From the NCBI GenBank assembly GCA_022844125.1, contig JALHMI010000025.1:1-60867 (forward strand): 60,867 nucleotides of DNA, in the 5' to 3' direction. The stretch's first letter is position 1. Every line of letters starts with the position of its first letter. A program made the translations under genes and the position numbers. Under the pieces are notes generated by a model, which saw only the letters and a list, made by a program, of their open reading frames with translations, made no database searches and had not been told where the DNA came from. Below are positions 34,762 to 52,986 of the stretch, piece by piece. This DNA comes from Pirellulales bacterium. Its GTDB lineage: Bacteria > Planctomycetota > Planctomycetia > Pirellulales > PALSA-1355.

Positions 34762-34776
34762 AGAGGTCGGCATTTT

Positions 34777-34972
<196 letters not shown>

Positions 34973-34991
34973 CAGAGAAGGCTGTCTCTCC

Positions 34992-36011: not shown

Positions 36012-36024
36012 AGGTCCCCAGCCG

Positions 36025-37419
36025 ATGGCCACGCTCGCTTTTCATGGCGCCGCAGAGACGGTCACCGGCTCGAAATACCTGCTCGAGGCGGGCCGCTCGC
36101 GGGTGCTGATCGATTGCGGATTGTTTCAGGGACTCAAGGAACTGCGACTGCGGAACTGGGAACGTCTGCCGTTTCCACCGTCGAGTGTGGACGCGGTGGT
36201 GCTCACGCACGCCCACATCGATCACATCGGCTACCTGCCGCGGCTGGCACGAGACGGTTTTCGGGGCCCGATCTATGCCACGCCGGCTACCGAAGCGCTG
36301 GCCGAGCTCTTGCTGCTCGACTCGGCCCACAACCAGGAAGAGGAAGCCGAGTACGCCAATCGCAAAGGCTACTCGAAACACCACCCTGCTCTGCCACTGT
36401 ACGGCGCGCATGACGTCAAGCGGGCGATGAGCCGCTTTCGCACCGTGCACCGCGACGAGTGGTTCGAACCGGCCGACGGTATCCGCGTTCGCTATCACGA
36501 CACGGGCCACCTGCTCGGCTCGTCGATGGTCGAGGCCGAAGTGAGCGAAGGGGTGGAGCCCGTGCGCGTGGTGTTCTCGGGCGACGTGGGCCGCTATGGC
36601 GCCCCGCTCTATTACGATCCGCAGCCGCCGCCGACATGCGACTACCTGGTGTGCGAGAGCACGTACGGCAATCGCGATCATCCGCCGCTGGACGTGTTCG
36701 AGCAACTGGCCGAGGTCGTACATAACGCGATTGCCCGCGGCGGCGTGATGCTGATGGCGTCGTTCGCCGTAGGCCGCGCACAGCAGCTCATCTACCTGCT
36801 GCAAGTGCTGATGGATAACGGCCGGATCCCCGAGATCCCGATCATTCTCGACAGCCCGATGGCCGCGGCAGGGATGGAAATCTATCGCTATTACGCCTCG
36901 GAGCACGACCTGAGCGAAGGCCTGGCCGTGCGGTCGGATTTTCAGTTCAGCCTCGATCGGGTGGAGATCATCACCAGCGTCGGCGGCTCGAAAGCCGTCA
37001 ACAAACTGAAAGGCCCGGGCGTCATCATCTCGTCTTCCGGCATGATGACCGGCGGTCGCATCCTGCATCACTTGCGACATCGGCTGCCCGACCCAAAGAA
37101 CACAATCGTGCTGGGTGGGTTCATGGCAGCCGGCACGCGCGGGCGAGCGCTGCAGGAAGGCGCCCGCTCGATCCGGATCTTTGGCGCGGAAGTTCCGGTG
37201 CGGGCTGCGGTGGTCGAGGTCTCGCAGCTCAGCGGACACGCGGGTCGCTCGGAGCTCTTGCGCTGGCTCGAGCCGCTCCCTGCTCCGCGGCAGGTGTTCT
37301 TGACTCACGGCGAACTGGCCAGCGCCACGGCGTTCGCCGACGAGCTACGCCAGGTGCGCGGCTGGAACACACTCGTACCGAAGATGGGGCAAGTCGTCCC
37401 ACTTAACCACTCGGATTGA
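36025..37419 (+). CDS. Beta-CASP metallo-beta-lactamase RNA-processing-type protein
   Basis: About 464 aa. The MBL core has the zinc motif HAHIDHIG (His62, His64, Asp66, His67), then HDTGHLLGSS and FSGDVGRYG with the following zinc ligands. The beta-CASP region contains SPMAAAGMEIY and the C-terminal blocks ISSSGMMTGGRILHHL and QLSGHAGRSELLRWL. Family members cleave RNA (CPSF73-like, YSH1/RNase J relatives). ATG 36025 begins MATLAFHGAAETVTGS, the standard start; the frame is open further upstream. It follows the prepilin-peptidase-like gene by 13 bases and precedes the LOG gene by 7. Confidence 0.9.
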   Translation: MATLAFHGAAETVTGSKYLLEAGRSRVLIDCGLFQGLKELRLRNWERLPFPPSSVDAVVLTHAHIDHIGYLPRLARDGFRGPIYATPATEALAELLLLDSAHNQEEEAEYANRKGYSKHHPALPLYGAHDVKRAMSRFRTVHRDEWFEPADGIRVRYHDTGHLLGSSMVEAEVSEGVEPVRVVFSGDVGRYGAPLYYDPQPPPTCDYLVCESTYGNRDHPPLDVFEQLAEVVHNAIARGGVMLMASFAVGRAQQLIYLLQVLMDNGRIPEIPIILDSPMAAAGMEIYRYYASEHDLSEGLAVRSDFQFSLDRVEIITSVGGSKAVNKLKGPGVIISSSGMMTGGRILHHLRHRLPDPKNTIVLGGFMAAGTRGRALQEGARSIRIFGAEVPVRAAVVEVSQLSGHAGRSELLRWLEPLPAPRQVFLTHGELASATAFADELRQVRGWNTLVPKMGQVVPLNHSD

Positions 37420-37426
37420 GTTCGTA

Positions 37427-38263
37427 ATGAAACGCGAAGTCCCGGATGTGCAGCGGATACTCGATTCGCCCAGCTATGTGCTGGCTGAGCGCGACATCGA
37501 ACTCTTGGCCACGGAAGAATTGCGGCCGGTCCGCTTGCAGCTCGAGCTGCTCAAGCCGGAGCTCACGCTGGACAGCAAGAACATCCAGTCGACGATCGTG
37601 GTATTCGGCAGCACGCGAATTCTGGATTTGCCCCTGCTCGAAGAAAAGGAGCGGGTGCTCTCGGAAGCTCTGGCCGCGGCGCCAAAAGACAAGCGAATCG
37701 AACGCGAACTGCAGCGCACCGAGCGACTGCTCGCGAAGTATCACTATTACGAAGAAGCCCGGGCATTCACCAGGCTCGTCTCGCAGCGGGCGCCGGCCGC
37801 GGGGCAGGAGTTCGTGATCGTCACCGGCGGTGGGCCCGGCATCATGGAAGCCGCCAACCGCGGCGCCTGGGATGCCGAAGCACCCTCGATCGGGCTGAAC
37901 ATCACGCTGCCGCTCGAGCAACTGCCGAATCCTTACATCACGCCCGAGCTCTGCTTTCAGTTTCACTACTTCGCGCTTCGCAAGATGCATTTTTTGCTTC
38001 GCGCCCGGGCGCTGGTCGTGTTTCCCGGCGGGTTCGGCACGATCGACGAGCTGTTCGACGCGCTCACGCTCAGGCAAACGCGCCGCATGCAGCAAATCCC
38101 GCTCATCATGTACGGACACGAGTACTGGGAGCAGGTGCTGAACTTTCAATTCCTGGCCGACGAAGGCACGATCTCGGACGAAGACCTCGACCTGATGCGC
38201 TATGCCAATACGCCAGACGAAGCCTGGCAGCACATCGCCGACTTCTATGGATTTACACCATGA
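37427..38263 (+). CDS. LOG-family nucleotide phosphoribohydrolase-like protein
   Basis: About 278 aa. The LOG/TIGR00730 signature is complete: GGGPGIMEAANRG and PGGFGTIDELFD. LOG proteins cleave 5'-monophosphate nucleosides of cytokinin type and related nucleotides to free base and ribose phosphate. The extra 90 or so N-terminal residues (helical) place it in the longer group often annotated TIGR00730 or YgdH-like. Its stop overlaps the next ATG by four bases (ATGA), so it is translated with the SDR that follows. ATG 37427 is eight bases after the beta-CASP stop. Confidence 0.88.
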   Translation: MKREVPDVQRILDSPSYVLAERDIELLATEELRPVRLQLELLKPELTLDSKNIQSTIVVFGSTRILDLPLLEEKERVLSEALAAAPKDKRIERELQRTERLLAKYHYYEEARAFTRLVSQRAPAAGQEFVIVTGGGPGIMEAANRGAWDAEAPSIGLNITLPLEQLPNPYITPELCFQFHYFALRKMHFLLRARALVVFPGGFGTIDELFDALTLRQTRRMQQIPLIMYGHEYWEQVLNFQFLADEGTISDEDLDLMRYANTPDEAWQHIADFYGFTP

Positions 38264-39045
38264 GCACTCCCCGACCTGCCCAGACCAACGCTTCGAGCCC
38301 CGTGGCGCTGGTCACGGGTGGCGGCCGCCGCGTGGGACTCGGGATCGCACAGGCACTTGCTGCGCGCGGGTATCGACTGGCGCTGCACGCGAGTGGATCC
38401 ATTGACTCAGCCAGAAAAACGGCCGCTGAATTTACCGCAGCGGGTTGCGAATCAATTGCCGCCAGCGCCGATCTACGCGATGTTACCGCGACCAAGGCGA
38501 TGGTTGAGCAGGTGGCCGCGCACTTCGGCCGAATCGATGCGCTGGTGAACAATGCCGCGATCTGGGAATCGAAACCGCTCGACCACGTGACCCCCGAGGA
38601 CGTTCGCAAGCACTTCGAAATCAACACGCTGGGTACATTCGTCTGCGCCCAGCAGGCCGGACGACTGATGTGCGCTCAAGCAGACGGAGGCGCGATCGTG
38701 AACATTGGCGACTGGGCCATCGAGCGGCCGTATCCGGATCACGCGGCCTACTTCATCGCGAAGGGCTCGATTCCCACGCTGACGCGCACCCTGGCGGTCG
38801 AACTCGGCCTGCGAAATCCGCGGGTGCGGGTGAATGCCGTCCTGCCGGGGCCGATCCTGATCCCGGAGGGAACCACTACCGAAGAGCGGCGACGGGTAAT
38901 CGACGCCACGCTGGTCAAACGCTGGGGCACGGTCGAGGAGTTGGCCGACGCCGTGTGGCTGCTGCTCTCGAACAGCTTTATTACCGGCGTTTGTCTGCCG
39001 GTGGACGGCGGACGAAGCGTCTATGGCCCCACGGAAAGCGAATGA
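38260..39045 (+). CDS. SDR oxidoreductase, pteridine-reductase-like
   Basis: About 261 aa. The dinucleotide loop is TGGGRRVGLG; the Arg after TGGG favours NADPH. The NNAA motif is present, the catalytic Tyr and Lys lie in YFIAK, and the usual serine is replaced in the motif NIGDWA, where Asp sits. This Asp and the following ERPYP resemble pteridine/dihydromonapterin reductases (PTR1, FolM). Likely role: reduction of a pterin or another small carbonyl compound. It overlaps the LOG gene by four bases. Confidence 0.82.
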   Translation: MSTPRPAQTNASSPVALVTGGGRRVGLGIAQALAARGYRLALHASGSIDSARKTAAEFTAAGCESIAASADLRDVTATKAMVEQVAAHFGRIDALVNNAAIWESKPLDHVTPEDVRKHFEINTLGTFVCAQQAGRLMCAQADGGAIVNIGDWAIERPYPDHAAYFIAKGSIPTLTRTLAVELGLRNPRVRVNAVLPGPILIPEGTTTEERRRVIDATLVKRWGTVEELADAVWLLLSNSFITGVCLPVDGGRSVYGPTESE

Positions 39046-39085
39046 TCACGCCCGCTCAGCCCTTCGGACAATTGTTAGGGCATTA

Positions 39086-39403
39086 TTAGGACGCAGCACG
39101 AAATCCACCAAAATGGGCGGGCTGCGTTGCCTGGCGAGTCGGCGGCTGGTAGCCTTTACGGCGCAGTAGGAGTTCGATGCCCATGTCGTGCGGAAGTCGG
39201 GCGGCGCGCGTTTCGTCGCTCCAGACTTTCCGCTTACGCCGATCGGACCGCGGCCAGTTTGGGCATTTCGAACGGAACGCAGGGAGCGAAGGCTCGCAAG
39301 TTCCGGGCAGCATTTCGACGCGAAGCCCTCGACAACCCGCACACGTATCGTCGAGAGTCAATTCGCAATCCACGTCTTCGCGATGCTCCCGCGCCCCAAG
39401 CAT
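39086..39403 (-). CDS. Hypothetical small protein with CxxC
   Basis: About 105 aa. ATG 39403 has GGGGG nine bases upstream. The sequence has an orderly middle (ELTLDDTCAGCRGLRVEM, with the CAGC pair) and a basic C-terminal half (KRKVWSDETRAARLPHDMGI). I do not recognise a family. It occupies an otherwise empty 440-base gap between the SDR (convergent) and the CHAD gene (divergent), which is what a real gene would do. A longer ATG at 39457 exists. Plus-strand frames overlap it, so the strand choice rests on start context and composition. Confidence 0.45.
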   Translation of the reverse strand: MLGAREHREDVDCELTLDDTCAGCRGLRVEMLPGTCEPSLPAFRSKCPNWPRSDRRKRKVWSDETRAARLPHDMGIELLLRRKGYQPPTRQATQPAHFGGFRAAS

Positions 39404-39485
39404 CCGCTGCCCCCAACACGGCAGCCGAGTGGGCCGAGGGCGCCTTGTGTAAGCCATTCATTTGCAAGGTAGCAGGCGGCGCGGC

Positions 39486-40445
39486 ATGGGACGCAACACG
39501 AAATGGGTTGAAGGCCAGCCGGAAGAGTCGGTCGAGCTGGTTGCGCGCCGGGCGCTCGCGGCGCGGCTGGGTCGGCTGTGGCATTTTCTCGAGCGGGCCG
39601 TGCAGCACGAAGGCCGCGAGGTGGAGGACGTGCACCAACTGCGCGTGTTCACCCGCCGCTCGGCCGCGGCCATGCGGATCTTTGAAGACTGGCTGCCCGG
39701 GCGTCGCGGGCGGTGGATGCATAAGCAGCTCAAGCGGATTCGCAAAGCGGCGGGCGAAGCCCGCGATCTCGACGTCCTGCGAACTCGCTGGAACGAAGAG
39801 CTGGCGGAGTTGCCCGCCGGCCAATCCGCGATTCTGCTGGAACAGGTCAAGCGTCGCCGCCGCCGGGCGCAGTGGCCCATCGAGGACGCCTTTCACAAAC
39901 TCGCCAGCAAGCGATTTCCGCGCCGCGCGCGCAAGCTCACCAAACGCATTCGCTACCGCGGGCCCGCAGGGGGCGACTGCGGCGATCGCCTGCTGTGCGT
40001 AGCCCGTGCCTCGCTTGGCGAGTTGCTGACGCCGTACTTTAAGGTGGCCGAAAGCACGTTCGCCGATCCGGTTGAGCTGCACGCCTTTCGGATTGCAAGC
40101 AAGCAGGTCCGCTATGCGATGGAAGTTTTCGCCGGCGCGTTCGACGACAGCTTCCGCCAGCAGCTTTATCCGCTGGTGGCCGACTTGCAGGACCGGCTCG
40201 GCAAGATCAACGACCACGTCACGGCGCTGACCTATCTGACCGCCTGGCATAACGAAACCGACGCGGACGCGGTGCGGCAGGCAATCGAGGCCGGGATGCA
40301 GGTGGAACAGCAGGCGCTTGACGAAAGCCAGCGCGAGTTTCTCGAGTGGTGGTCGGCCGAAAAACGAGAGCAACTGCGGAATCAATTCGCCCGCTATGTG
40401 CCCTTCGATACGCCGCCAACGCAGGCCATCGAAGCGAGTGCCTGA
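39486..40445 (+). CDS. CHAD-domain protein
   Basis: About 319 aa, all helical and Arg/His-rich. The CHAD pattern is seen as VEDVHQLRVFTRRSAAAMRI, with the conserved His and Arg residues, and a second half around ELHAFRIASKQVRYAMEVF. CHAD domains bind polyphosphate through basic surfaces. The CYTH partner domain is absent and no polyphosphate kinase is near. ATG 39486 replaces a TTG at 39462. Role inferred: polyphosphate-associated protein. Confidence 0.88.
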   Translation: MGRNTKWVEGQPEESVELVARRALAARLGRLWHFLERAVQHEGREVEDVHQLRVFTRRSAAAMRIFEDWLPGRRGRWMHKQLKRIRKAAGEARDLDVLRTRWNEELAELPAGQSAILLEQVKRRRRRAQWPIEDAFHKLASKRFPRRARKLTKRIRYRGPAGGDCGDRLLCVARASLGELLTPYFKVAESTFADPVELHAFRIASKQVRYAMEVFAGAFDDSFRQQLYPLVADLQDRLGKINDHVTALTYLTAWHNETDADAVRQAIEAGMQVEQQALDESQREFLEWWSAEKREQLRNQFARYVPFDTPPTQAIEASA

Positions 40446-40473
40446 TCGTCCGGTTATCCTGGCGAGACTACCG

Positions 40474-40505
40474 CACGGTACTACCTCACGGTACTACCTC
40501 ACGGT
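40474..40505. repeat. Tandem 13-base repeat overlapping the PilZ-like stop
   Basis: CACGGTACTACCT occurs twice in tandem with a partial third copy (CACGGTGCG). The stop codon of the PilZ-like gene (40494-40496, minus) is inside it. Such short arrays grow or shrink by slippage, which would move the stop. Confidence 0.7.
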
Positions 40506-40943
40506 GCGTTTGATCGGCGAGGGCACCGACTGGATGAACCGTCCGCCGCTCTCGTACCAGCCGTAGCGCGTGAAGCGACACCAGGTGATGTCGATCAGGA
40601 AGCCCGCCCACAGGTGCTCGGAGGTCTCCAGCGAGGCGATCATCCGCCGGTGCGCGATCGGCGACTGGTAGTAGAAACCCAGCCCGCGCTCGGACAGCGT
40701 TTTGCCGACCACGGTCACCGATTCGTCAATCGGGGTGAGTCCGTCCGGTCCGACAGGCGTGAGATACAACAAGTGCGGATAGGGAAAGCGTTGGTCCTGC
40801 CGCTTCTCGACGATGTTCCCTTGCGGATAGACACCGACCAACACGCCCCACACCTGCTGACGAATGATCTCGTCGCTCTGCGGGTTCGGTTCGAGGATCG
40901 GGGGTGGTGGCTGAATCTGCGGAAAGGCAACGCCTGCGCTCAT
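40494..40943 (-). CDS. PilZ-like domain protein (tentative)
   Basis: About 149 aa. A proline-rich N-terminus (PPPPILEPNPQSDEI) is followed by a small beta-barrel. The pair KRQDQRFPYPHLLYLTPV and VVGKTLSERGLGFYYQSPI resembles the RxxxR and (D/N)xSxxGxxF motifs of PilZ, which bind cyclic di-GMP; here the second reads TLSERGLGF. The match is partial. ATG 40943 is preferred over GTG 41045. The C-terminal codons and stop lie in a tandem 13-base repeat. Role in c-di-GMP sensing is inference. Confidence 0.5.
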   Translation of the reverse strand: MSAGVAFPQIQPPPPILEPNPQSDEIIRQQVWGVLVGVYPQGNIVEKRQDQRFPYPHLLYLTPVGPDGLTPIDESVTVVGKTLSERGLGFYYQSPIAHRRMIASLETSEHLWAGFLIDITWCRFTRYGWYESGGRFIQSVPSPIKRTVR

Positions 40944-41191
40944 GGAGATGGGTCCGCCTGTGGAATGGAGACTTCGAGATTGCTCCGCGCGCTGCTCGCG
41001 CAGCACGCGGCCTTGGCCCGAACGGGTGACGAAGTATGAGCTCACGGATCGCAGCCGTAGCGCTGTTTCCGTGTTGCGAAGAGCTTTCCTGAACCGGTCT
41101 GCAATGCCGAGAGCAAGGCCGCGGTCAGCGTGAAGAAGGGAAGTGCGCGCTGACAGCCAAAGGATTCCTACGTCGCAATCGCGCTGCTGTC

Positions 41192-41240
41192 AAAACGGCG
41201 CTGGGAACCTTTTCTCAGAAACGGTTCCTGGCGCTGTTTT
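41192..41240. repeat. AACGG..GGAACC palindrome overlapping a stop codon
   Basis: Eighteen-base arms (AAAACGGCGCTGGGAACC and GGTTCCTGGCGCTGTTTT) pair with three mismatches around a 13-base loop. It is a relative of the 19-bp hairpin at 55606. The right arm includes the stop of the 41215 gene, so that protein's last residues (NSARNRF) come from the repeat. Confidence 0.75.
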
Positions 41241-42030
41241 CCAGGGCGGCACCGCTTTCGAGAGCCCAGAAGATCAGCGCGTCGGAAAGGTTCGAGGCGT
41301 TTTTCTCACGGGGAATTTGCTGGGTCACCGCGGCCAGGTTTTCGCGGGCCGGCCGACAGTCGGGATCGAGCGCCACGGCCTGCAAGTTTTCCCAGGCGGC
41401 CGCCGACAGTCGCCCCTGGTGAATCAGCGAAACGCCGCGATTGTAGTGCAGCACGGCGAGCAGTTTCTGCTCGTCCAGCGGCTGGCCCACAATCGCTCGA
41501 CGGCGATGTTTGGCCATTGCGGCCGAAACCTGGCCGGTGGGAACTCCCCGGTATTTCGCCCGGATCGCAAACCAATCGCGGCTGGTGGCCTCGATGTCGA
41601 TCGCCGGCAAACCCTCGACCCGGCACCAGACATGCCCCGGCACGGACATGGCCGTGGCACTCACTCCGCAGCGATCCGCGAGCAGCGTGAAGAGCACGGT
41701 CGCCGAGACGCAATTGAACGGCCCGCCGTCCATTGCCACGCCCAGATCGCTCGCGCTCGGTTCATAGCGGCCCCGCAGAATCCGCTCGTGCAGAAAAGCG
41801 TGGATCGCTTCGGCCCTCGCTTCATCGCCGGTTGCGGGCAGACGGTATTCGAGCTCTTCGGCTAACCGGTCGAGCCGCGCGAGATACGGCGAAACTTCGC
41901 CGGCCGGCACGCCGCTGGCCACGAAAATCCGCGATTCACAGGGGGCGGATGCCGCCAAGGCAGCGCTCACGCTGAGCGCGAAAATCGCCGCAAAACTCGC
42001 GGCGCGACAAGCGGTGGCTGGCGTCATCAT
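41215..42030 (-). CDS. Secreted transglutaminase-like protein
   Basis: About 271 aa with a signal peptide (AASFAAIFALSVSAALA). A papain-like/transglutaminase core is visible: Cys107 in GGPFNCVSAT, His133 in VPGHVWCRVE and Asp145 in AIDIEAT, in the right order for the Cys-His-Asp triad. The C-terminal part (about 185-250) is TPR-like (LLAVLHYNRGVSLIHQGRLS). Such proteins act as cysteine proteases or cross-linkers in the periplasm. The final residues and the stop derive from a dispersed palindrome, so the original end may have been different. Confidence 0.75.
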   Translation of the reverse strand: MMTPATACRAASFAAIFALSVSAALAASAPCESRIFVASGVPAGEVSPYLARLDRLAEELEYRLPATGDEARAEAIHAFLHERILRGRYEPSASDLGVAMDGGPFNCVSATVLFTLLADRCGVSATAMSVPGHVWCRVEGLPAIDIEATSRDWFAIRAKYRGVPTGQVSAAMAKHRRRAIVGQPLDEQKLLAVLHYNRGVSLIHQGRLSAAAWENLQAVALDPDCRPARENLAAVTQQIPREKNASNLSDALIFWALESGAALENSARNRF

Positions 42031-42325
42031 GACTTTTCCCCGATCAGCGAAGCGGCATTGCCCATTAAACCCGCTAATTGGAACTTAACCGCGCCCATGC
42101 CCGCTGGCCGGTTGCAGTGACCGGGCAAAACCTACGGATGCCCTGCGACTGCTCCGGCGGTAACGATTGCGCCGGATTTGACCTTCCGCTGCAGCCGGCC
42201 TCGGTGAGACCGGTAGAGCGTCAGAGGATGGGACCACCCACTCACGGTAGTAACGCCGCGCGGCCCAGGCCTCCTGGGGACACAGACGGTCCCAGACCCC
42301 GGCTACAGAAAGCAGGCAGCAGGCG

Positions 42326-43093
42326 TTACCTCGGCCCCATCCGCAGCGCGCCGTCCAGCCGGATCGTTTCGCCGTTGAGCATCGCATTCTCAACGATGTC
42401 GCGGGCAAGTGCCGCATACTCGCTCGGCCTGCCCAGGCGGGCCGGAAACGGCACCGCGGCCGAAAGCGCCTTTTGCATGTCGGGCGTCATGCCGGCCATC
42501 ATCGGTGTTTCGAACACGCCGGGGGCGATCGTCATCACGCGAATACCAAAGCGGGCGAGCTCGCGCGCGATCGGCAGGGTCATCGCCACGACGCCACCCT
42601 TGGAGGCCGAATACGCGGCCTGGCCGATCTGCCCGTCAAACGCCGCGACCGAGGCGGTGTTGATAATCACGCCGCGCTCGAGATCCTCGTTCGGCTCGTT
42701 GGTGGTCATTATCATCGAGGCCAGGCGAATCACGTTGAACGTGCCAATCAGGTTCACCTGAATCGTGCGGCTGAAGGCCTTCAGGTCGTGCGGGCCTTCT
42801 TTGCCGACGACGCGGCCGGCCGACGCGATGCCCGCGCAGTTGATGGCCACGTGTACGCCGCCGAACTGATTCTTGGCGGTTTCGAGCGCGGCTTGTACGC
42901 TGGCTTCATCGGTGACGTCGGTGCGCACGAACTTGGCTCGGCTGCCAAGTTCGGCGGCGGTTCGCTGGCTGACTTCTTCCTGAACATCGGCGATCAGCAC
43001 GTTGGCGCCGCTTTCCACGAACAGCCTTGCGCAGGCTGCGCCCAAACCCGATCCGCCGCCCGTGACAAAGACTGTGCTGCCGTCGACCTTCAT
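42326..43093 (-). CDS. SDR dehydrogenase, 3-hydroxyacyl-CoA dehydrogenase type 2-like
   Basis: About 255 aa. TGGGSGLG is the NAD-binding loop, Asp in IADVQ selects NAD, and the catalytic residues are Asn, Ser in [10 protein letters not shown], and Tyr/Lys in YSASK. The pattern [20 protein letters not shown] and the C-terminal [15 protein letters not shown] fit the HSD17B10-like (type 2) group, which oxidises 3-hydroxyacyl-CoA and branched substrates. ATG 43093 is preferred over the longer start at 43177. Neighbours do not include other beta-oxidation genes. The 295 bases downstream (42031-42325) hold no recognised gene. Confidence 0.88.
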
Positions 43094-43187
43094 GATGGAA
43101 CGCCGCCTGTGAAAGATGCCCGAAGAAGTGCCTTGAGACGTGCCCGCCAAATTACGGCCAGAAAGTGGCGGCGTCAACTACTTGGGA

Positions 43188-44555
43188 TCAAGCTTCTTGG
43201 TTCGCGCTGTTGATCACTTCGACCGACTGCGATTCGGCCAGGTTCGTCTCGGGCGCGAGGATCACCTGTTCACCTTCAGCGAGGCCTTCGACGACCTGCG
43301 CCTGCTGGTCGTTGGCCAGGCCGATCTTGACCGGCTGCAAGTGCGCCCGGCCGTCGCGAATGACGAACACCCGCCAGTCGTTCTGCGCCCCGCGAAACAG
43401 CGCGGAGCGAGGAATCACCAGCGCGCCGGCATCTTCGGCGGTGAAGATCCGCACCCGGACGCGGTAGTGCACGCCGATGTCGTTCGTCTTTCGCAGCCGC
43501 GCGAGATCCTCGGGCGTGAACTTCATGACAACTTTCACGCGCTGCTGTTCGACACCCAGCGAACTGGTCTTGGTGAAGCCCGCGGGAAAGATCCGCGACA
43601 CAGTCGCTTTGGCCGGCGTGGGGCCGATCGTCGGACCGTGAATTTCGACCGACTGTCCCGGCTTCACGCGGACGACGTCCTGACTCAGCACGTCGGCCTC
43701 GATCTCAAGATCTTCCCAGCGACCAATCTCCAAAAGCACCGTGCCGGCGGCAACTTGTCGCTCGTTGCTGATCTCGCGCTTCAGTACGACGCCGTCCACG
43801 GGGCTGGTCATGCTGGCGAGCCTGGCGTTCTTCTCCACTTCGCGATAGTTCACCTCGGCCTCGGCCAACTGTTGCTCGAGTACCGCGTGCGTAAGCTGCT
43901 TGCGCTGAATGTACTGCCGGACCATCGTGGGCATCAGGGCCATCGCAGCCCGCATCGCCTGCGTCGAGCGCAGATCGAGATTGTCCTGCTCGAACTGAAC
44001 GCCCGCATCGATCTGGGAGACCTCTGCCTGATCGAGTTCGTCGAGCGTCGAGGCGCCGGTGCGCTGCAGGCCGCGAATTCGGCCGAGCCGCTTTTCGGCA
44101 AAGTCGAGCTGGGCCTGGGCACTCTTGGTGCGCGCTTCGGCCGCTTCGACCGTGCGATCGACAGCCTCCACCATGTTGACCGTCTGCTGCAGGGCAGTCG
44201 TTTCGACCGAGACATCGTCGTTCTCCTTGATCGAAGCCTTGAGCCGGTCGACGATCGCTTTGGCCTCGGCAATCTGCAGGTCGACGTCGATCGGCGAGAT
44301 GCGGGCGACCACTTGCCCCTTCGTGACCGGCGTGCCTTCCACCAGTTCGATCGGCTCGATGCGGCCGTCGTAGGGCATCGTGATCAGGAAGGTGTCGACG
44401 AGCCGCGTCTTGCCTTCCTCGTCGATGTATTCGCGCACCGGGCCGCGTTTCACACTGGCGGCTTCCACTGGCACGCCCGAACGCAGGGAGGTAAACCCGG
44501 CCGCGGCAGCAGCCACGACAACCACGGCGATGATGATCCAGATCCAGGTTCGCAT
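43188..44555 (-). CDS. HlyD-type periplasmic adaptor of an ABC exporter
   Basis: About 455 aa. One N-terminal TM helix (WIWIIIAVVVVAAAAAGF) leads to a lipoyl-like half (MPYDGRIEPIELVEGTPVTK), a long alpha-hairpin coiled coil (about residues 95-225), the second lipoyl half (SMTSPVDGVVLKREISNERQ) and beta-barrel and MP domains. It would link the FtsX-type permease and ATPase encoded downstream to the outer envelope, as MacA does with MacB. Gene order is ATPase, permease, adaptor, all minus, with gaps of 79 bases or less. Confidence 0.87.
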   Translation of the reverse strand: MRTWIWIIIAVVVVAAAAAGFTSLRSGVPVEAASVKRGPVREYIDEEGKTRLVDTFLITMPYDGRIEPIELVEGTPVTKGQVVARISPIDVDLQIAEAKAIVDRLKASIKENDDVSVETTALQQTVNMVEAVDRTVEAAEARTKSAQAQLDFAEKRLGRIRGLQRTGASTLDELDQAEVSQIDAGVQFEQDNLDLRSTQAMRAAMALMPTMVRQYIQRKQLTHAVLEQQLAEAEVNYREVEKNARLASMTSPVDGVVLKREISNERQVAAGTVLLEIGRWEDLEIEADVLSQDVVRVKPGQSVEIHGPTIGPTPAKATVSRIFPAGFTKTSSLGVEQQRVKVVMKFTPEDLARLRKTNDIGVHYRVRVRIFTAEDAGALVIPRSALFRGAQNDWRVFVIRDGRAHLQPVKIGLANDQQAQVVEGLAEGEQVILAPETNLAESQSVEVINSANQEA

Positions 44556-44634
44556 GACTTGATTATTTCCTGTTTGGCGGCGGGGCCAAGCGGTGAAATT
44601 CAGTTCCAGAATCCAAAGTTAAGCATACGCCGCA

Positions 44635-47006
44635 TCATTCCTTGGTTTTCGATGCGTCCAGCCAATCGAGATGGTTGATCGACCGCTGCACGAACGCGTG
44701 GGCCACCAGCGCAAACACCAGGCCCATGGCGAACGTCGTGACCCACACCCAGGTCGGGGCGATCAGCGGGAAGCGGAACATCTCGGTGTCGTAGATCCGC
44801 GAGAGCATGTAGGCCAGGCCGTATCCGATGGGCAGGCCGAGCAATGTGCCGGCAGTGTTGATCACCAGGCTCTCGCGCAAAAAGAGCCCGCCGACCTGCC
44901 ACTCGTTGTAACCCAGCACGCGCAAGGTGGCGACCTCGCGGCGCCGCTCGGCCAAACCCACGAGCGACGAGTTAAGCAGCGTGCTGAAGAAGATCACGCC
45001 CGCGAACAGCACCACGAAGCCAATAAAGATCCGCTGCGTTTCGACAATGAACTCCATGTTACGTATCACGTCCTGCCGCACGTTGACCGACTGAATCGCC
45101 GGCAGTTGTTTGAGCTCGCGATTCAGCTCGCTGCGGGCATTCCTATCCGGATCGACCTGTAGCTGCACGCCGGTGATCGCGAACTCTTCGCCGACCAGCC
45201 GGCTGAGGTAGTCGATATTGGCGTACACGGCCATCCCGATGTAACTGTCGGAAAGCTCCGTGACGGGCACCTGCATGGGATCGCGGCGGCCGCGCGTGGG
45301 GATGACTGTCACCAGGTCGCCGCGGCGGATTTCCAATAGCTCGGCCAGCTTGCTGCTCATCGCCAGGCCGGCATCGGGAATGCGGATGCGATTCCCTTCG
45401 ACGTCGCGCGGCATCGTCAGCCGGCTGTGGGGCACGAGGCCCGAGATCCCGCCGCGGCGGCGATTCGGCCCGTTGACGAACGTGCAGCTCACGTCGAACT
45501 GCGGTTCGGCGAAGTCGATGCCCGGCAGTTCGCGAGCTTCGTAGAACGCCGGCCGGCCGAGCTCGTCCTTGAAGCGAAGGTCAACGTCGCTGCGGGTGAC
45601 CAGTTGAAACTGGAAGTTGATCAGGTAGGCGATCGCACTGGTGAGCACGAAGCCGCACATCAGCAGCCCCGCGCCGAGCGCTGTGGCGAACACGCCGACG
45701 GCGCTCCGCCGCTTGTTGCGAAAGACGTTGCGCAGCACGAGCCGCCAGCCAAAACTGAGCCGCTCCCAGACGCGGGGCAGATGTTCGAGCCAGATGGCGC
45801 CGCCCTTCATCGGGGGCTTGGGGCGCATCGCCTCGGCCGGATGCAGGGCGAGCGCGACGCGGGCCGCGCGAACCGAACCGATCACCGAACAGAGCATCGC
45901 CACGGCCACGCCGCCGGCGTAGGTGCCGGGATAGATTTCGCTGCGCAGGTCCGGAAACTCATAAAACAGCTTGTAGATGTTCGTCACCAGGTGCGACATA
46001 CCATAGCCGAGCAGCATCCCCAGCAGCGAGGCAAACACGCCGAGGGCGATCGAGAATTTCACGTAGTGCAGGAAGATCTGCCAGTCGAAATAGCCAAGCG
46101 CCTTGAGCGTGCCGATCACCGTTCGTTGCTGTTCGACCAGCCGGACCATCAGCACGTTGAGCACCAGCGCCGCCACGGCCAGAAAGATTGCCGGCATGAC
46201 GCTCGAAAACACGCCGACGCCCTTGATCTCGTCGCTGAGGAACTGGTTCGAGCTTTGCGTCTTGAGGCCATAACTGGTTGCCACGCCATAGGGCTCAAGT
46301 AGCACCTCCATCTGGCGCAAAACTTCGCCTGGCCGCTCTTTCAAGCCCGGCTCGAGCTGCCCGATGATCTGGTTCGTCGCCCCGTCAAAGTCGAACACGT
46401 CCTCCGCGTAAGATCTCTTGAGGTAGAACACGCCAAAGTGCTCCGGATCGGGCGCGATTGCCCCCGGCGAAACCAGGTACACGAATTCGCTGCTGATCGC
46501 CGTGCCCACCACCTGCAGCTCTTGCCGGCGATTGTTCAGCAACAGGTGAATCGTCTGGCCCGGATGGATCCCATGCTTGCGGGCGAACGCCGAGTTGACG
46601 ATCACCTCTTCCAGTTTGCGATCGGTGAAGTATCCGCCGCTCTGGATCACGATGTCGTTGATGATCGGCTCGCGCTCGTCGGGCAGCGACAGCACCAACC
46701 CGTTGAGCGGCACCGGCACTCGTTCCAAGTCGACCGTGGCAAAAAACTGAATCCGCGGGCGGATGGCCGTCACGCCCGGCACTTCCAGCAGTCGCTCGAC
46801 GTCGACCAGCGGAGCCTTCTTGAGCTCGATCCAGAAGTCGGCCATCCGACACTGGTTGTAGTAGCGAAATTTGGCCAGGCTGAGGTTGTAGTAGGTCGTC
46901 CGCATGTAGACAAAGCACATCACGCCCATGGCAATGATGCTGCCGATCGCCACCAGCATCAAACCGCTCGAGCGGACTTCGCGCAGCAGTTTGCGGTCGA
47001 GCACGC

Positions 47007-47013
<7 letters not shown>
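44635..47013 (-). CDS. FtsX/MacB-like ABC permease, double domain
   Basis: About 792 aa with about eight TM helices. These are one near residue 20, three in the first FtsX block (VMPAIFLAVAALVLNVLMV to YAGGVAVAMLCSVIGS), one near 445 and three at the C-terminus (FIGFVVLFAGVIFFSTLL to WVWVTTFAMGLVFALVAHAF). Two large periplasmic MacB-like regions lie between. It is the membrane part of a lipoprotein- or macrolide-type exporter. The start is GTG 47013, overlapping the ATPase stop by seven bases. Confidence 0.87.
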
Positions 47014-47735
<722 letters not shown>

Positions 47736-47904
47736 CGCGAAGCTTCAGGAACGAAGTGGCCAGGGCCGCGTAGACGGAAGTAAGTCGTGTATAGGTTAAT
47801 GGTACACCAACGAGACGCCTGCGGCTGAAGGCGGGTTCGCCGACTCAACAATCGGGCGAAATTAGCGGAAAAACGCCGCGATCAACCAGATTCTTGGCAC
47901 ACTT

Positions 47905-47927
47905 CCCGGGGGATGGTATCCCCCGGG
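47905..47927. repeat. Palindromic repeat CCCGGGGGAT / ATCCCCCGGG
   Basis: A hairpin with stem CCCGGGGGAT/ATCCCCCGGG around GGT and a trailing CTTTA, related in form to the CCAGGGG family. It lies about 80 bases upstream of the ECF sigma start. It makes an upstream ATG (47913) an unlikely start. Confidence 0.75.
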
Positions 47928-48005
47928 CTTTATTTTTGCGCTGCGGAAAGTTTTTCGCCATTCGACTGTCAGGAATCGGCCGCTCGGGCGTCTACATTAC
48001 AGGTC

Positions 48006-48587
48006 ATGCAAACAGCGGCCTTACCATGCCCAGCCGTGAAACATCAGCCCGCGGAAGCCGACGAGCGGCACTTGGCGGCCCGCGTCGCGCGGGGCGACGA
48101 CTCGGCATTGGATGAGGTGATCGCCCGGTATGGCTCGCGGGTGGTGAGGCTGGCGGCGCGGCTGCTGGCCTGGACCGATGGGGCCGAAGACGTGGCCCAG
48201 GACGTGTTCGTGGCGGTGCTGGCCCAGGGGAAGCACTTTCGCGCGGAGTCGAACCTCTGGACCTGGCTGGCCGCGCTCACAGTGAACCGCTGCCGCAGCG
48301 TGCGCCGCCGCCGCTGGGTGCAGGAGCGCGTGCTGCGGGTGGTCGGCGGTTCGACACCTGCTGTCGAAGTGAAACAACTGGAGCGCGATGAACATGCCGC
48401 GCGGGTGCGAGCCGCGGTGGCCGAGTTACCGGCGTTGGCGCGGGAGGTGATTGTGCTGCGGTACTTTGAAGAGCTGTCGATGGACGAAATTGCCACGATC
48501 CTCGGTGCGAAACGCAACACGGTTGAAGCGCGGCTCTCCCGCGCTCGCAAACAACTCGAACCACTGCTGAAGCCACTGGCGGAATGA
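48006..48587 (+). CDS. ECF sigma-70 factor
   Basis: About 193 aa. Region 2 carries ARLLAWTDGAEDVAQDVFVA and a WTWLAALTVNRCRS segment; region 4 is PALAREVIVLRYFEELSMDE, then the helix-turn-helix AKRNTVEARLSRARKQL. Region 3 is absent, as in ECF factors. ATG 48006 follows TTACAGGTC; the earlier ATG at 47913 lies in a palindrome. The downstream single-pass membrane protein and the third gene fit a sigma/anti-sigma/effector unit, though two dispersed repeats lie between the first two. Confidence 0.9.
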   Translation: MQTAALPCPAVKHQPAEADERHLAARVARGDDSALDEVIARYGSRVVRLAARLLAWTDGAEDVAQDVFVAVLAQGKHFRAESNLWTWLAALTVNRCRSVRRRRWVQERVLRVVGGSTPAVEVKQLERDEHAARVRAAVAELPALAREVIVLRYFEELSMDEIATILGAKRNTVEARLSRARKQLEPLLKPLAE

Positions 48588-48614
48588 CAGCCCCACTAGG
48601 GGCGGCCGTTAATA

Positions 48615-48636
48615 GCCGGGGATGGAAACCCCCGGC
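48615..48636. repeat. Palindromic repeat GCCGGGGATGG / ..CCCCCGGC
   Basis: A short hairpin (GCCGGGG with CCCCGGC around ATGGAAAC) just after the sigma-factor stop, of the same general form as the CCAGGGG family. Confidence 0.65.
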
Positions 48637-48709
48637 AACGGAAACACACAACCCTTCGTTATTAACTTTCAGCTTCAGAGGGCTATGCCATTAACCATCG
48701 AGCGGACCG

Positions 48710-48835
48710 GGGTGCCACAGGTGCTGCGCAGCAGTCACCTGTGTACTTCGCGATCTATAAGAGCCTGCCTGGCCAACCGTGCTGACATACTCAAAGGGGC
48801 ACAGGTGAGCCGCGACGCGGCCACCTGTGGCACCC
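48710..48835. repeat. Inverted pair of CACAGGTG hairpins ending in GGGTGCCAC/GTGGCACCC
   Basis: Hairpin 48716-48743 (CACAGGTG ... CACCTGTG, with inner CTGCGCAG) and hairpin 48800-48829 (CACAGGTG, inner GCCGCGACGCGGC, CACCTGTG) face in opposite directions. The outer ends are perfect inverted GGGTGCCAC and GTGGCACCC. About 56 bases lie between. It sits between the sigma factor and its probable anti-sigma gene. Confidence 0.8.
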
Positions 48836-48932
48836 GACCGTAACTCACGCCGCTGGCGCAAGGAGCGTACGAGTCTCAACCAGGAAATGGTTAACGGCAT
48901 AGCCCGCAGCGGCGGCCCTTTGGATTACTCCC

Positions 48933-49484
48933 TTGCACGACGACCAACTACACAAGCTGTTGCACGGCGCCGAGGCGGATCTCGCCTCGCCAAAGGTCGC
49001 GCCGGCTGCGCTGGCCGCTCGCGTGCGGATCGCAGATCGCCGCCGCCGGAATCGGAAAACGATTCTCACCGCGGCCGCTCCAATTGCCCTGATCGCGGCG
49101 TTCGTCCTCGGTCGGGGGCTCGTATCGCACGAAACACCTAGCGAGATTTCCTCGAAATACTCGGAGGAATCTTTTAACGCCCGACTGCTGGCCCTCGAAG
49201 CCGAGGCGGAAAAGCATGCCGCTCGGGCGCGAGCGCTCATGGCCGAGCGCGCAGCAAGAATGAGCCTGGAAGCCGACGATCCGCTGGCCGAGCTCCGCGA
49301 GAACGTCGACATTGTGGCTTACCGGATGATCCTCGAGGCCGACGAACTGCAGGCCGACATGCGGCCGAGCCCAGCAGCGATCGAAATCTACGAGCGCGTG
49401 ATCCGAGATTTCCCGAACACCTATTCGGCCGAGGTCGCCCGAGAGCGACTGACCGCGGCCGGTTCCACAGGAGTGAAGTCATGA
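48933..49484 (+). CDS. Single-pass membrane protein, probable anti-sigma factor
   Basis: About 183 aa starting at TTG, because no ATG or GTG is in frame before it. The N-terminal 35 residues are cytoplasmic. One TM helix (ILTAAAPIALIAAFVLGRGL, about 43-62) follows, and the periplasmic part is a Glu/Ala-rich coiled coil (NARLLALEAEAEKHAARARA) ending in a helical-repeat segment. It lacks the zinc-binding HxxxCxxC of ZAS anti-sigmas. Anti-sigma function is inferred from its place after the ECF gene. It overlaps the next gene by four bases (ATGA). Confidence 0.65.
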   Translation: MHDDQLHKLLHGAEADLASPKVAPAALAARVRIADRRRRNRKTILTAAAPIALIAAFVLGRGLVSHETPSEISSKYSEESFNARLLALEAEAEKHAARARALMAERAARMSLEADDPLAELRENVDIVAYRMILEADELQADMRPSPAAIEIYERVIRDFPNTYSAEVARERLTAAGSTGVKS

Positions 49485-50629
49485 AATGGCAAGTGGCGAT
49501 GTGGTTGGTGTTCGGATTGCTTGTGGCTCTGCCGTTTAGCGTGGCGCAAGAGCCGGAGAAGGCTGCGCAAACGGAACAAAAGCCTGACGCAGCTCCACCG
49601 ATAGATTTTTCTTTATTGCAGCCGCCTGGTGAACCACAAGCGCCCAAGCCCACCAGCAAAGCGTCGGGTTTGATTTACGTAAAACCCGGTACCGGGCGCG
49701 GAGGTGCCAATCCGGCCCCGCTGCATGCGTTGTTGCAAAACCCTGAAGTCCAACAAGCGGCGATTAAACAGCTCGGACTGTCGCCACAAGTCCTGAAGTC
49801 GGTCGAAATAAGTATCGTCGGCGGCATCAACATCATGACCGTCGTTTCTTACGATCAACGGCTGGAAGCCGGCCTGATGCTGGCAGCCCTGAAAGACGAG
49901 GCGACGAAGAAACTGATCGAGCTGGATAAACCCGAAGAGCTCTTTAGCCGACGCGATCAAGAGCAACGAGTTGTCGAGCAATTGCAGGCGGATTGGGCCC
50001 GCCAGCGTCAAGCATTAATGGCTATGGCGAAGCAAAATGGCGTCGACATCGATCCTCAAGTTGCTGGGCAAAGGAGATTGCGGATAGTGACGGAAACTCA
50101 ATCTCTACAAGTCGAGCTACGCGGTCTCGAAGCGCGTCATGCACTTCTAGAGAAGCAACTCGCAGAGCTCGCGAACAAACCGAATGACGAGAACGCCGTC
50201 AAAGTCGTTCACGAGCTAGGTCGAGTCATCGAAGCGAGGAAGCGTAACCTCGAATTTCTGGTTGAGGCCAGGACGCTGGGTGACGGAACGGCTCCAATCC
50301 AGCTTGAACAAGCCAAGGCGGAACTGGCCCTGGCAGAAGCGGAGCTGGCGAAATTCCGCCGCGAGGCGGCCGCGGGCAACAATCAACGGGCTAACAACCT
50401 ACGACAGCGTCTGGAAGAAACGCTCATCGCAAAAGCGGAGATTGAGGCCAAGCTGGGCGAGCTCGCCCGTCTCGATTCGTCATCGGTCGCCGTCGACGCG
50501 ATACGCATTGAAGTCGAACTCCTCGAGCAGAAATATCGCCGAGCGAAACAAGAACTTGACGAGCTGGATGCCGAGATATTCCGCTACGTATTTACGCCAC
50601 CGCACGTGGTCCTGATTCGCACGAAGTGA
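49481..50629 (+). CDS. Secreted coiled-coil protein of the sigma operon
   Basis: About 382 aa with a signal peptide (VAMWLVFGLLVALPFSVAQ). Residues about 165-370 are long heptad-like helices (LQVELRGLEARHALLEKQLA, then LEQAKAELALAEAELAKF). Residues about 60-130 are less regular. I do not recognise a family. Its start overlaps the probable anti-sigma gene (ATGA), so it is translated with it and could be a periplasmic sensor or effector of the same switch. It uses slightly fewer GC-rich third positions than its neighbours. Confidence 0.65.
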   Translation: MKWQVAMWLVFGLLVALPFSVAQEPEKAAQTEQKPDAAPPIDFSLLQPPGEPQAPKPTSKASGLIYVKPGTGRGGANPAPLHALLQNPEVQQAAIKQLGLSPQVLKSVEISIVGGINIMTVVSYDQRLEAGLMLAALKDEATKKLIELDKPEELFSRRDQEQRVVEQLQADWARQRQALMAMAKQNGVDIDPQVAGQRRLRIVTETQSLQVELRGLEARHALLEKQLAELANKPNDENAVKVVHELGRVIEARKRNLEFLVEARTLGDGTAPIQLEQAKAELALAEAELAKFRREAAAGNNQRANNLRQRLEETLIAKAEIEAKLGELARLDSSSVAVDAIRIEVELLEQKYRRAKQELDELDAEIFRYVFTPPHVVLIRTK

Positions 50630-50652
50630 AGCATGCGGCGTTCGCGATGCGT

Positions 50653-50674
50653 CCAGGGGAAGGTATTCCCCTGG
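50653..50674. repeat. Palindromic dispersed repeat, CCAGGGG family
   Basis: CCAGGGGAA and TTCCCCTGG pair around GGTA, followed by CTTTAGG. Nearly the same sequence, with the same flank, as 13296-13318. Confidence 0.8.
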
Positions 50675-50841
50675 CTTTAGGCCGGCACTTAGTGTCGCCC
50701 AGGGCGGCGCAAGCACCGAGATTGATCCCATCCAGCGGACTTGATACGATAAACGTCCAGCCAGACCGGCACGCCCGCGTGCCCCACGCCCCGCGACCCT
50801 GCCTTTAGCACACTCGCCCGCCTACAGCTTGGAGACCTCCC

Positions 50842-52203
50842 ATGCTGACGATTCCCGGACAACGCCTGCGCGGTTTTTGCGACGGCATCTCCCGTCGCTC
50901 GTTTCTCAAGATCGGCGGTCTAGCACTCGGTGGGCTCACGATGCCGCAGATCATGCAGGCTCAGGCGGCCACGAACCTCAAGAATGGCGGTGCGACGCCC
51001 GCTGGGCACAAGGGGATCATCATGATCTTCCTGCCGGGCGGACCTCCGCATCAGGACTTCTTCGACCTGAAGATGGACGCTCCGGCCGAAGTCCGCGGCG
51101 AGTTCAAGCCAATCCGCACCAACGTCAGCGGCATCGAGATTTGTGAACAGTTTCCGTTGATCGCCCAGCGGATGGACAAGCTGGTGCCGATCCGCTCGAT
51201 CGTCGGCGCGAGCGGCGCGCACGACGCGTTCGAATGTCTCACCGGCCGGCGCAACAACTCGCAGCAGCCGCCCGGCGGCTGGCCCTGCCTCGGGTCGGTG
51301 CTCAGCAAACTGGAAGGCGCTGCCGATCCCGGCATGCCGCCCTTCGTGGGCCTGTCGCCGAAGATGGGGCACATGCCCTGGTCCGATGCCGGTAAGCCGG
51401 GCTTCCTGGGCGTGGCACATGCACCGTTCAAACCGGCCGGCGAAGGCCAAGGCGACATGGTGCTCAACGGCATCTCGCTCGACCGGCTCGGCGATCGCAA
51501 GGCGTTGCTCTCCAGCTTCGACAGCTTCCGCCGCGAGGCCGACGCCACCGGCATGATGGACGGGCTCGACAATTTCAATCAGCAGGCCTTCGGCGTGCTC
51601 ACCTCGAGCAAGCTGATGGAAGCGCTCGACGTCTCGAAAGAAGACGCCAAGGTTCGCGACCGCTATGGCAAGGGGGATCCCAAGAATCGCGACGACGGCG
51701 GTCCCAAGCTGATGGAGCAGTTCCTCATGGCGCGGCGGCTGATCGAAGCCGGCTCGCGCTGCGTGACGCTTGCCTTCAGCCGTTGGGATCATCACGGCGA
51801 CAACTTTGGCGCCTGCCGGCAAGATATGCCGCTACTCGATCAAGGGCTTTCCGCACTCATCGACGATATTCACGATCGCGGGCTGGATAAAGATGTCTCG
51901 GTCGTTGTGTGGGGCGAGTTCGGCCGCACGCCGAAGATCAACGCCCAGGCCGGCCGCGACCACTGGCCGAACGTTTCCTGCGGCCTCTTGTTCGGCGGCG
52001 GCATGCGCACGGGGCAAGTCATCGGCTCAACCGATCGCCTTGGCGCGGAGGCGAAGGACCGGCCGGTACATTTCCAGGAAGTGTTCGCGACGCTCTATCA
52101 CCGCCTGGGAATCGACGTGAACACGGTTACGGTCAACGACTTCTCCGGCCGCCCGCAGTTCCTGGTCGACCGCGGCAATCAGCCGATGAAAGAGCTGATT
52201 TAG
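50842..52203 (+). CDS. DUF1501 protein with Tat signal
   Basis: About 453 aa. The N-terminus carries a twin-arginine motif ([19 protein letters not shown]), so export of a folded protein is expected. DUF1501 features follow: [55 protein letters not shown] and [20 protein letters not shown], placing it in the alkaline-phosphatase-like sulfatase fold. DUF1501 proteins are expanded in Planctomycetes and usually pair with DUF1549/DUF1553 cytochrome-like proteins, which are not adjacent here. ATG 50842 follows TTGGAGACCTCCC. Confidence 0.92.
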
Positions 52204-52242: not shown

Positions 52243-52433
52243 ACCGCAGAGGGCGCGGAGGTACGCAGAGGGAAGCCCGGCAATTGTTGTTGGTTTTGCA
52301 ACACGCGCTTTCTCAGCGCAGGCATCCCTCGCTTACGTCATCTATGTTGATTCAGTGTTCATCCGTGGTTGTCTTCCCTGCTGCATTCTTCCTCGGTATT
52401 TCCTCTGCGTACCTCCGCGCCCTCTGCGGTTAA
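52243..52433. mobile_element. Inverted-repeat element without a gene (related to 20409)
   Basis: Arms 52243-52271 and 52402-52433 (core CCGCAGAGGGCGCGGAGG) are exact reverse complements of each other and differ from the arms at 20409 by one base, A to G, changed on both sides. The 130-base interior has no open frame of note. It lies between the convergent DUF1501 and DUF456 genes, ending 19 bases before the DUF456 stop. Likely a deleted or non-autonomous form. Confidence 0.6.
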
Positions 52434-52452: not shown

Positions 52453-52986
52453 CTAGAGCAGCATCGCGCCGAGCGCGACGATCACCATCAGCGTGCAGAC
52501 GATCTGTTTGCCGACGGTGCCCAGCAGCCGGCCGACAAATGCGGCTTTGCCAACTTGCAGGCTGGTGTCGAAGTCGCGCCCTTTCCACGATTCGCCCAGG
52601 AACGCCCCGACCATCGCACCGATGCCGCCGAACAGGATCGCGCTCACCAGCGAGCCGATCACGGGTATCGGGATGCCCACGAACAGGCCCACGATTCCGC
52701 CGACCAGTGAACCGACGATGGCGAGCACGGTACCGCGGCGGCTGCCGCCGGCTTTGGCAGCGCCCATTGCGCCGGCCAGAAACTCGACGAGCTCGCCGAT
52801 GAGGGCCAGCACGACCAGCAGCGCCACGGCTTGCCAGCCGAGCGCGGCCCGCGAGCCATCGGCCACGAGCCAGGCATAGAGCGCGGCCGTGACGACGATC
52901 AACCAGTTGCCCGGCAGGCCGACGAGTTGCACGAGCCAACTCACCAGCACGATGAGCACGTAGAAAAGTCCGGCCGCGATGTTCAT
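52453..52986 (-). CDS. DUF456 membrane protein
   Basis: About 177 aa with four or five TM helices, including LFYVLIVLVSWLVQLVGLPG and QAVALLVVLALIGELVEFLA. The glycine-rich middle (GTVLAIVGSLVGGIVGLFVG) and the LPGNW motif identify DUF456. Function unknown. It is convergent with DUF1501, with an inverted-repeat element in between. ATG 52986 begins MNIAAGLFY. Confidence 0.87.
   Translation of the reverse strand: MNIAAGLFYVLIVLVSWLVQLVGLPGNWLIVVTAALYAWLVADGSRAALGWQAVALLVVLALIGELVEFLAGAMGAAKAGGSRRGTVLAIVGSLVGGIVGLFVGIPIPVIGSLVSAILFGGIGAMVGAFLGESWKGRDFDTSLQVGKAAFVGRLLGTVGKQIVCTLMVIVALGAMLL

Follow-up and report, generated by a model that had tools for sequence, protein, structure and literature searches.

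The window analysed here, a stretch of 60,867 nucleotides from a Pirellulales bacterium, contains two inverted repeats, element A (20413-20934) and element B (52244-52429), and both lie between tail-to-tail genes, as the original prediction had stated (Table 1). Their arms consist of tandem CRCNNAG-like words starting with TTMACC, the left arm of B starting with CTGACC. The arms of B cover 43 nucleotides each (52237-52279 and 52394-52436), are 88% complementary and are 114 nucleotides apart. Within each element, the core 27-mers of the two arms are identical when read on opposite strands: 20414-20440 (+) equals 20907-20933 (-) in A, with A at the variable site in both arms, and 52245-52271 (+) equals 52402-52428 (-) in B, with G in both. 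The paired change that had been noticed, A/A in one element and G/G in the other, is therefore real. Four core matches occur in the window, compared with none in 100 dinucleotide shuffles. When stems of at least 12 nucleotides were scanned, no such inverted repeat was found inside a single B arm, and no part of the window matched an RNA family, rRNA included, at Rfam gathering thresholds.

Table 1. Elements A and B, their neighbouring genes and the inverted block in the window
Feature	Position	Strand	Remarks
Left neighbour of A	17204..20383	+	1059-aa ORF without family match; adjoins DUF1501 in G001-G003
Element A, left arm core	20413..20440	+	
GxxExxY (TIGR04256 / PDDEXK_3) gene remains in A	20511..20857	-	profile matches
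Element A, right arm core	20907..20934	-	upstream side of the enclosed gene
Right neighbour of A	20935..21819	-	alpha/beta hydrolase; adjoins DUF456 in G001-G003
Inverted block	20935..52203	.	relative to G002; same junctions in G001 and G003; ends are A and B
Left neighbour of B	50842..52203	+	DUF1501 gene
Element B, left arm core	52244..52271	+	three tandem words CGCAGAGG-GCGCGGAGG-TACGCAGAGG
Element B, interior	52272..52401	.	without GxxExxY match
Element B, right arm core	52402..52429	-	words of the B left arm, read on the - strand
Right neighbour of B	52453..52986	-	DUF456 gene

Both elements had been called palindromes. Both are inverted repeats, but A does not form a short palindrome: 466 nucleotides separate its arm cores, with what is left of a GxxExxY gene between them. 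Two TIGR04256 matches (20511-20744 and 20735-20857) overlap there in different frames, the second with one in-frame stop, and the longer gene piece scores 82.3 bits with TIGR04256 (cut-off 35; positions 43-114 of 116) and 78.6 bits with PF13366 (cut-off 22). An intact GxxExxY gene is found between the arms of neither element, that of A being broken and B having no match. Judged by their sequences, A is a degraded copy and B a miniature of a GxxExxY unit. The stretch CAACCACGGATGAACACTGA in the interior of B (52352-52371, - strand), recognized by eye and not matched by a stricter pattern, looks like a remnant of an inner CACAGAT-type word.

The genome of the window (G000; 6.44 Mb in 27 contigs) contains 48 arm matches with at most three mismatches, and the reversed control contains none. 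A weight matrix applied to the stretches around these matches detects 70 strong or weak arms; 46 of them combine into 23 left-right pairs that are 82 to 623 bp long. A second, inner word family (CCACAGAT-type) is present in both halves of 12 of these pairs, and a GxxExxY match lies inside A only. The six GxxExxY-family matches in the genome comprise the two halves of the gene in A, two partial genes and two that are near full-length, the last two being flanked by arms that differ from those of A and B; no intact GxxExxY gene was found between A/B-like arms anywhere in this genome. By eye, its other GxxExxY genes are enclosed by or adjacent to inverted repeats whose arms differ, except for a fragment on contig C14, where no inverted repeat was seen. 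Three genomes of the same family contain no exact match to a looser arm pattern, and 9 of 53 genomes of the same order contain one to four. Chance may account for some of these matches; in two genomes the reversed control has one match each.

Such arms might act as RNA hairpins, serving as two-way terminators or 3' stabilisers between convergent genes and kept by selection. The region of element B (52225-52445) has a strong predicted fold (z = -9.4), and seven convergent pairs in the genome lie directly behind stop codons, with gaps of 0 to 40 bp. Some convergent excess is also observed, with p = 0.07 for pairs and p = 0.047 for all classified sites (13 of 44 versus 20 of 130), where genes were called with a home-made codon-usage caller and background gaps were taken from stretches around elements. 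Convergent flanks are nonetheless not the rule that had been proposed: the pairs include 7 with convergent, 13 with tandem and 2 with divergent flanks plus 1 unclassified, compared with 20, 80 and 30, respectively, among element-free gaps of at least 60 bp, so that 7 of 22 classifiable copies are convergent and 13 of 22 lie between same-strand genes. A simple scan found no terminator-like site at B, and at another locus one unit lies between same-strand genes that, by eye, overlap in a genome without the element (G214).

The arms had also been proposed to be selected as a structure, and the pattern of changes in this genome does not support that idea. Changes among the 23 pairs are mostly confined to one arm (102 one-arm, 21 shared and 6 conflicting), with shared changes above the 8.3 seen under shuffled pairing (p = 0.001); the 13 best-scoring pairs show 33 one-arm, 4 shared and 1 conflicting, where 1.8 shared changes are expected (p = 0.08). 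These counts indicate that the two arms of an element are weakly linked, not that they compensate for each other. At the variable A/G site, the 17 better-scoring pairs include 10 A/A, 1 G/G (element B) and 6 discordant, and both arms are changed in one of the seven changed elements. The matched letters in A and B are probably a coincidence at the level of the element. RNA pairing under selection is also disfavoured by arm mismatches in 95 gene-bearing elements, which comprise 130 of the G-U type, 126 of the A-C type and 240 transversions, with no clear G-U excess; 37 loci lean to G-U and 26 to A-C. We consider a selected RNA hairpin improbable.

Matches to TIGR04256 are present in 70 of 149 genomes sampled from the phylum, and GxxExxY genes are mostly located between inverted arms of tandem 7-letter words with a period of 8 to 10. 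Among 24 loci with full flanks (6 of 30 were cut by contig ends and left out), the inverted flanks score above every shuffle in 22 and above the 95% point of cross-locus pairings in 20. A broader collection of 80 named loci represents bacteria of many phyla and two archaeal records; after 4 were dropped for short flanks, 47 of 76 scorable loci reach an inverted-repeat score of 16, compared with 2 of 158 control positions. This score is also reached by 27 of 38 scorable held-out loci and 1 of 40 controls, while 11 of the 38 fall below it. The held-out set (2 of 40 dropped for short flanks) consists of other loci from the same genome sample, with several genomes shared.

A word grammar was written after the 104 loci had been viewed, and the held-out loci serve as its test. 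Both sides fit it in the right orientation at 49 of the 104 loci and at none of 208 controls, and one side alone fits at 61 loci upstream and 63 downstream, compared with 6 and 10 among the controls. Because wrong-orientation matches to the grammar are also found beside some of the 104 genes (16 upstream, 22 downstream), the arms around GxxExxY genes are not always simple outward-facing pairs. Both sides fit at 11 of 38 held-out loci and 0 of 40 controls, and several other held-out loci have clear arms whose words are outside the grammar. Of the two archaeal records, a Methanosarcinales locus fits and a Methanothrix locus does not. Element ends usually start with TT[AC]ACC, and in 88 of 95 elements the best word period is 8 to 10.

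In 60 elements, word agreement is 0.88 between the arms of one element versus 0.556 between elements (0 of 10000 permutations), and the distances between proteins are correlated with those between words (r = 0.34; 0 of 5000 permutations), a value uncorrected for shared ancestry. The suggestion that each element was duplicated as a unit is roughly right in the sense that arms, plus the gene where it is present, go together in many genomes. A target-site duplication gave no diagonal signal in 60 gene-bearing elements. Carriage by phages or plasmids was considered and rejected, as one GxxExxY query at E 1e-5 matches 0 of 50,697 phage and 8 of 72,556 plasmid records.

The enclosed protein is predicted, from its modelled fold and catalytic residues, to be a small Cas4/Hjc-like PD-(D/E)XK nuclease. 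Residues D63, E73 and K75 and those of the GxxExxY motif are invariant in 23 sequences from relatives; in a set of 37 sequences, the D and K are invariant and the E is found in at least 90%. A model of one relative (locus L155; pLDDT 96.4) has its best structural match in Cas4 SSO0001 (Z 9.8, rmsd 3.2, 97 aligned residues), followed by a restriction-endonuclease-like protein (Z 8.0, rmsd 3.2, 96 aligned) and Hjc (Z 7.2, rmsd 3.0, 84 aligned). A Foldseek search with the same model gave a best E of 0.0025, with none at or below 0.001, and sequence search yielded no solved structure for a GxxExxY protein. When two GxxExxY proteins were compared with defence and phage protein collections, one gave a weak Cas4 match in PADLOC (E 0.005), and one gave a weak match of unknown function in PHROGs. 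The gene is under purifying selection, with dN/dS of 0.10 to 0.22 in eight comparisons of copies at orthologous sites that are not all independent and that leave out G105, which gave no usable reading frame. Gene-bearing elements at one site persist under purifying selection across sister species at dS near 1, which fits a benefit to the host as well as it fits selfish spread.

Orthologous sites differ in occupancy. At all three loci tested, some relatives have no element or other DNA in its place, with gain versus loss unproven at each. At L260, the element is present in G151 and G090, other DNA is found in G058 and G206, and short gaps are found in G204, where a possible remnant is seen by eye, and G207; no match to the site was detected in G205. 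At L098, G090 and G151 carry the element, G058, G206 and G207 have none, and G204 and G205 have other DNA. Eleven genomes were compared by eye at L102. Four (G177, G208, G209 and G105) have one element type, and six (G213, G211, G126, G210, G212 and G215) have a second type with other words and another GxxExxY subgroup, in which the gene looks incomplete in G213, G126 and G212. The remaining genome, G214, lacks an element, and its two same-strand flanking genes overlap. Other genes are inserted at orthologous element sites: by eye, a GIY-YIG-like gene inside the element in G212 (L309) and a macro-domain-like gene in G205 (L315).

Elements A and B occupy the two breakpoint gaps of a block of ~31 kb that is inverted relative to G002. 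Orthologues of the window genes at 20935-52203 were found on contig C13 of that genome (4.2-32.0 kb) in the same order and direction, while the genes outside the block (52453 on one side; 17372 and further on the other) are inverted. G001 and G003 have the same adjacencies as G002, with the 1059-aa gene next to the DUF1501 gene and the hydrolase next to the DUF456 gene, on separate contigs. Because all three same-family relatives have this other gene order, the order in the window is derived. Both ancestral junctions are convergent, and the tail-to-tail setting of A and B is therefore explained by junctions that were convergent before the flip. By eye, no such element is present at the ancestral-type junctions of G001, G002 and G003. 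In G002, a gene for a REP-associated tyrosine transposase, or RAYT (L334; contig C13, 12037-12666; NF047646, 102 bits with a cut-off of 80), sits in the breakpoint-orthologous junction between the DUF1501 gene and the 1059-aa gene, which suggests that different mobile units use one gap in relatives.

Contig C27 contains a second inversion relative to G002, a two-gene block (20170-21958) bounded on both sides by elements, one of which has a degraded arm. In a strict comparison with G002, five of the 10 gaps that contain an element show a break in gene order, compared with none of the 40 element-free gaps (Fisher p = 1.2e-4); the five broken junctions amount to about three events, and many of the 40 gaps come from the window. 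The contrast is much weaker in a looser count that takes missing neighbours as breaks and extends beyond G002, where breaks fall in 8 of 12 gaps with an element and in 17 of the 41 element-free ones that span at least 60 bp; this count misses element A, because the broken gene there was called as a gene. The G002 sequence compared amounts to 1.24 Mb (parts of contigs C1-C6 and C13), and most elements are therefore uncovered (14 of 20 pair gaps and 11 of 17 single-arm gaps). The element at C6:1830 in G000 (L040 and L041) marks a further order break relative to contig C3 of G002, which looks like a larger rearrangement.

The arms themselves carry a possible trace of the exchange. The left arm of A is the best match of the right arm of B among 69 other arms, with a score of 49, compared with 50 for the 99% point over all arm pairs, while the B right arm is tied third for the A left arm; by eye, the two share 42 nucleotides with one mismatch. 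These matches fit a crossover between the A left and B right arms, that is, an element swap, and are suggestive only. On C27, the expected inverted partner arms are not each other's best matches. Short inverted repeats exactly at the joins, in a genome assembled in 27 contigs, could also mislead an assembler into creating such an inversion. Yet the perfect stretches common to the A left and B right arms are only ~20 nucleotides long and the pattern recurs on a second contig (C27), and we regard an assembly artefact as the most remote of the explanations considered here.

A second small protein family in the phylum provides a parallel. The four-helix-bundle family TIGR02436 has matches in 74 of 149 genomes and none in G000. 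Its genes, which are of the rRNA intervening sequence (IVS) type, have inverted arms of tandem words, mostly with a 7-bp period (L124-L153): flanks are above every shuffle at 21 of 27 loci (3 of 30 were cut by contig ends and left out), and the best period is 7 in 16 of 23 elements. In a report on Coxiella, the 23S rRNA IVS is described as an ORF between terminal inverted repeats with a 28-bp stem that RNase III cuts in vitro, and the origin of IVSs is discussed there as a transposition remnant or mobile element (PMC4990558). It is possible that arm-flanked TIGR02436 units are the origin of rRNA intervening sequences, a matter that has been debated.

The A/B unit resembles the 23S rRNA IVS with its S23/four-helix-bundle ORF in having one small ORF between terminal inverted repeats, and could itself be a relative of IVSs, an RNA unit that RNase III excises from transcripts. 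Besides the Coxiella description (PMC4990558), the tandem-word inverted arms of four-helix-bundle genes elsewhere in the phylum speak for such kinship. Differences lie in the protein family, the word period, the location between protein genes and the tandem-word architecture of the arms; moreover, no rRNA was found in the window, no TIGR02436 match in G000 and no clear G-U bias in the arms. This explanation seems slightly less probable to us than a selected RNA hairpin, and only a little more so than an assembly artefact.

On balance, we lean toward the explanation that A and B each represent a copy of a compact unit of mobile type, built of arms and a nuclease gene, and that inverted recombination between them flipped the intervening block. 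The unit has its anatomy in many phyla, gene and arm words are kept together, and elements are found at both ends of two inversions. The word arrays could be end-recognition sites for the unit's own nuclease, which would cut at the unit ends, possibly when these are extruded as a cruciform or hairpin. Cutting there might allow the unit to copy into intergenic gaps, and copies without a gene, B among them, may depend on movement in trans. Lying in inverted orientation at a distance of 31 kb, A and B would then have recombined through arm homology or after nuclease breaks. The arms in wrong orientation and the arm matches on C27 weigh against the simplest form of this explanation.

Alternatively, the arms could be passive repeats spread by another enzyme, such as a RAYT-like or other transposase acting in trans or host repair, with GxxExxY as cargo or parasite and RecA recombination as the cause of the inversions. 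Several observations agree with this alternative, namely the missing duplication signal in 60 elements, the presence of a GxxExxY match in A alone among the 23 pairs, the RAYT gene at one ancestral-type junction in G002, and the near-identity of the A left and B right arms. However, gene and word type are inherited together, and the gene is under purifying selection with its active site kept. The four-helix-bundle family furthermore has its own, different word period, which points to a separate arm grammar for each protein family. Passive repeats are a serious contender that we nevertheless judge unlikely. A wider generalization of the mobile-unit explanation is tentative and only a little more plausible than passive repeats: a class of transposase-free compact elements in bacteria and at least one archaeon, in which a Cas4/Hjc-like nuclease would read self-matching end words, spread miniatures and flip segments, with four-helix-bundle genes as a parallel class that uses a 7-bp code.

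Among known systems, PMC3116915 describes REPINs and RAYTs as intergenic inverted doublets with predicted hairpins that are tied to one nuclease-type gene family, and reads single arms as remnants, features that recall those seen here. Unlike REPINs, the arms of the present elements have about three tandem words and copies lie at inversion ends; in place of a Y1 transposase, the unit itself encodes the associated protein, a predicted PD-(D/E)XK nuclease. Copies that lack a gene but have terminal inverted repeats, B among them, are also reminiscent of MITEs as characterized in PMC3116915 and PMC13367494. In contrast to MITEs, gene-bearing relatives show no target duplication signal. We know of no transposase parent for B-like gene-less copies. 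The protein is akin to the Cas4/Hjc/lambda-exonuclease branch in predicted fold and catalytic residues, and differs from it in its stand-alone core of ~117 amino acids, the arms that flank its gene and the weakness of its Cas4 sequence match.

Earlier work places GxxExxY as a gene neighbour of a CRISPR-linked reverse transcriptase (PMC8934634), and GxxExxY also occurs in PMC12085832. A unit of arms plus GxxExxY was not found described in the literature covered, whose scope excluded subscription journals and preprints; among the matches listed for the arm sequence strings, none concerns bacterial repeats by title or abstract. REPIN/RAYT systems and rRNA intervening sequences are the closest published kinds among those considered, and PMC3116915 and PMC4990558 describe neither with such arms or such a protein. 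Within that coverage, we file the unit as a compact inverted-repeat mobile element whose arms and protein are apparently new with respect to REPIN/RAYT and IVS. GxxExxY and the four-helix-bundle/IVS family are common small families of unclear function that are mostly inside inverted tandem-word arms with separate grammars, and this association gives both a testable candidate substrate; arm-flanked four-helix-bundle genes in addition suggest a source for intervening sequences in rRNA. The elements also point to a source of gene-order change, as all five order breaks in the strict comparison with one relative are at elements.

Further repeats accompany the arm family in G000. A repeat of approximately TTTAGCCCGGAGGYATCGCCGACGG, absent from the window, is inside or beside several elements (L032, L043, L050, L057 and L063). 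Four near-identical longer copies (C1:49144, C3:443672, C4:438152 and C6:363214) each contain one arm, and two of them are near contig ends, so they perhaps belong to a larger repeat that breaks the assembly. At L044 (C8:347128-347222), one arm has expanded, with the double word ACACAGAGGACACCGAGGT repeated in tandem.
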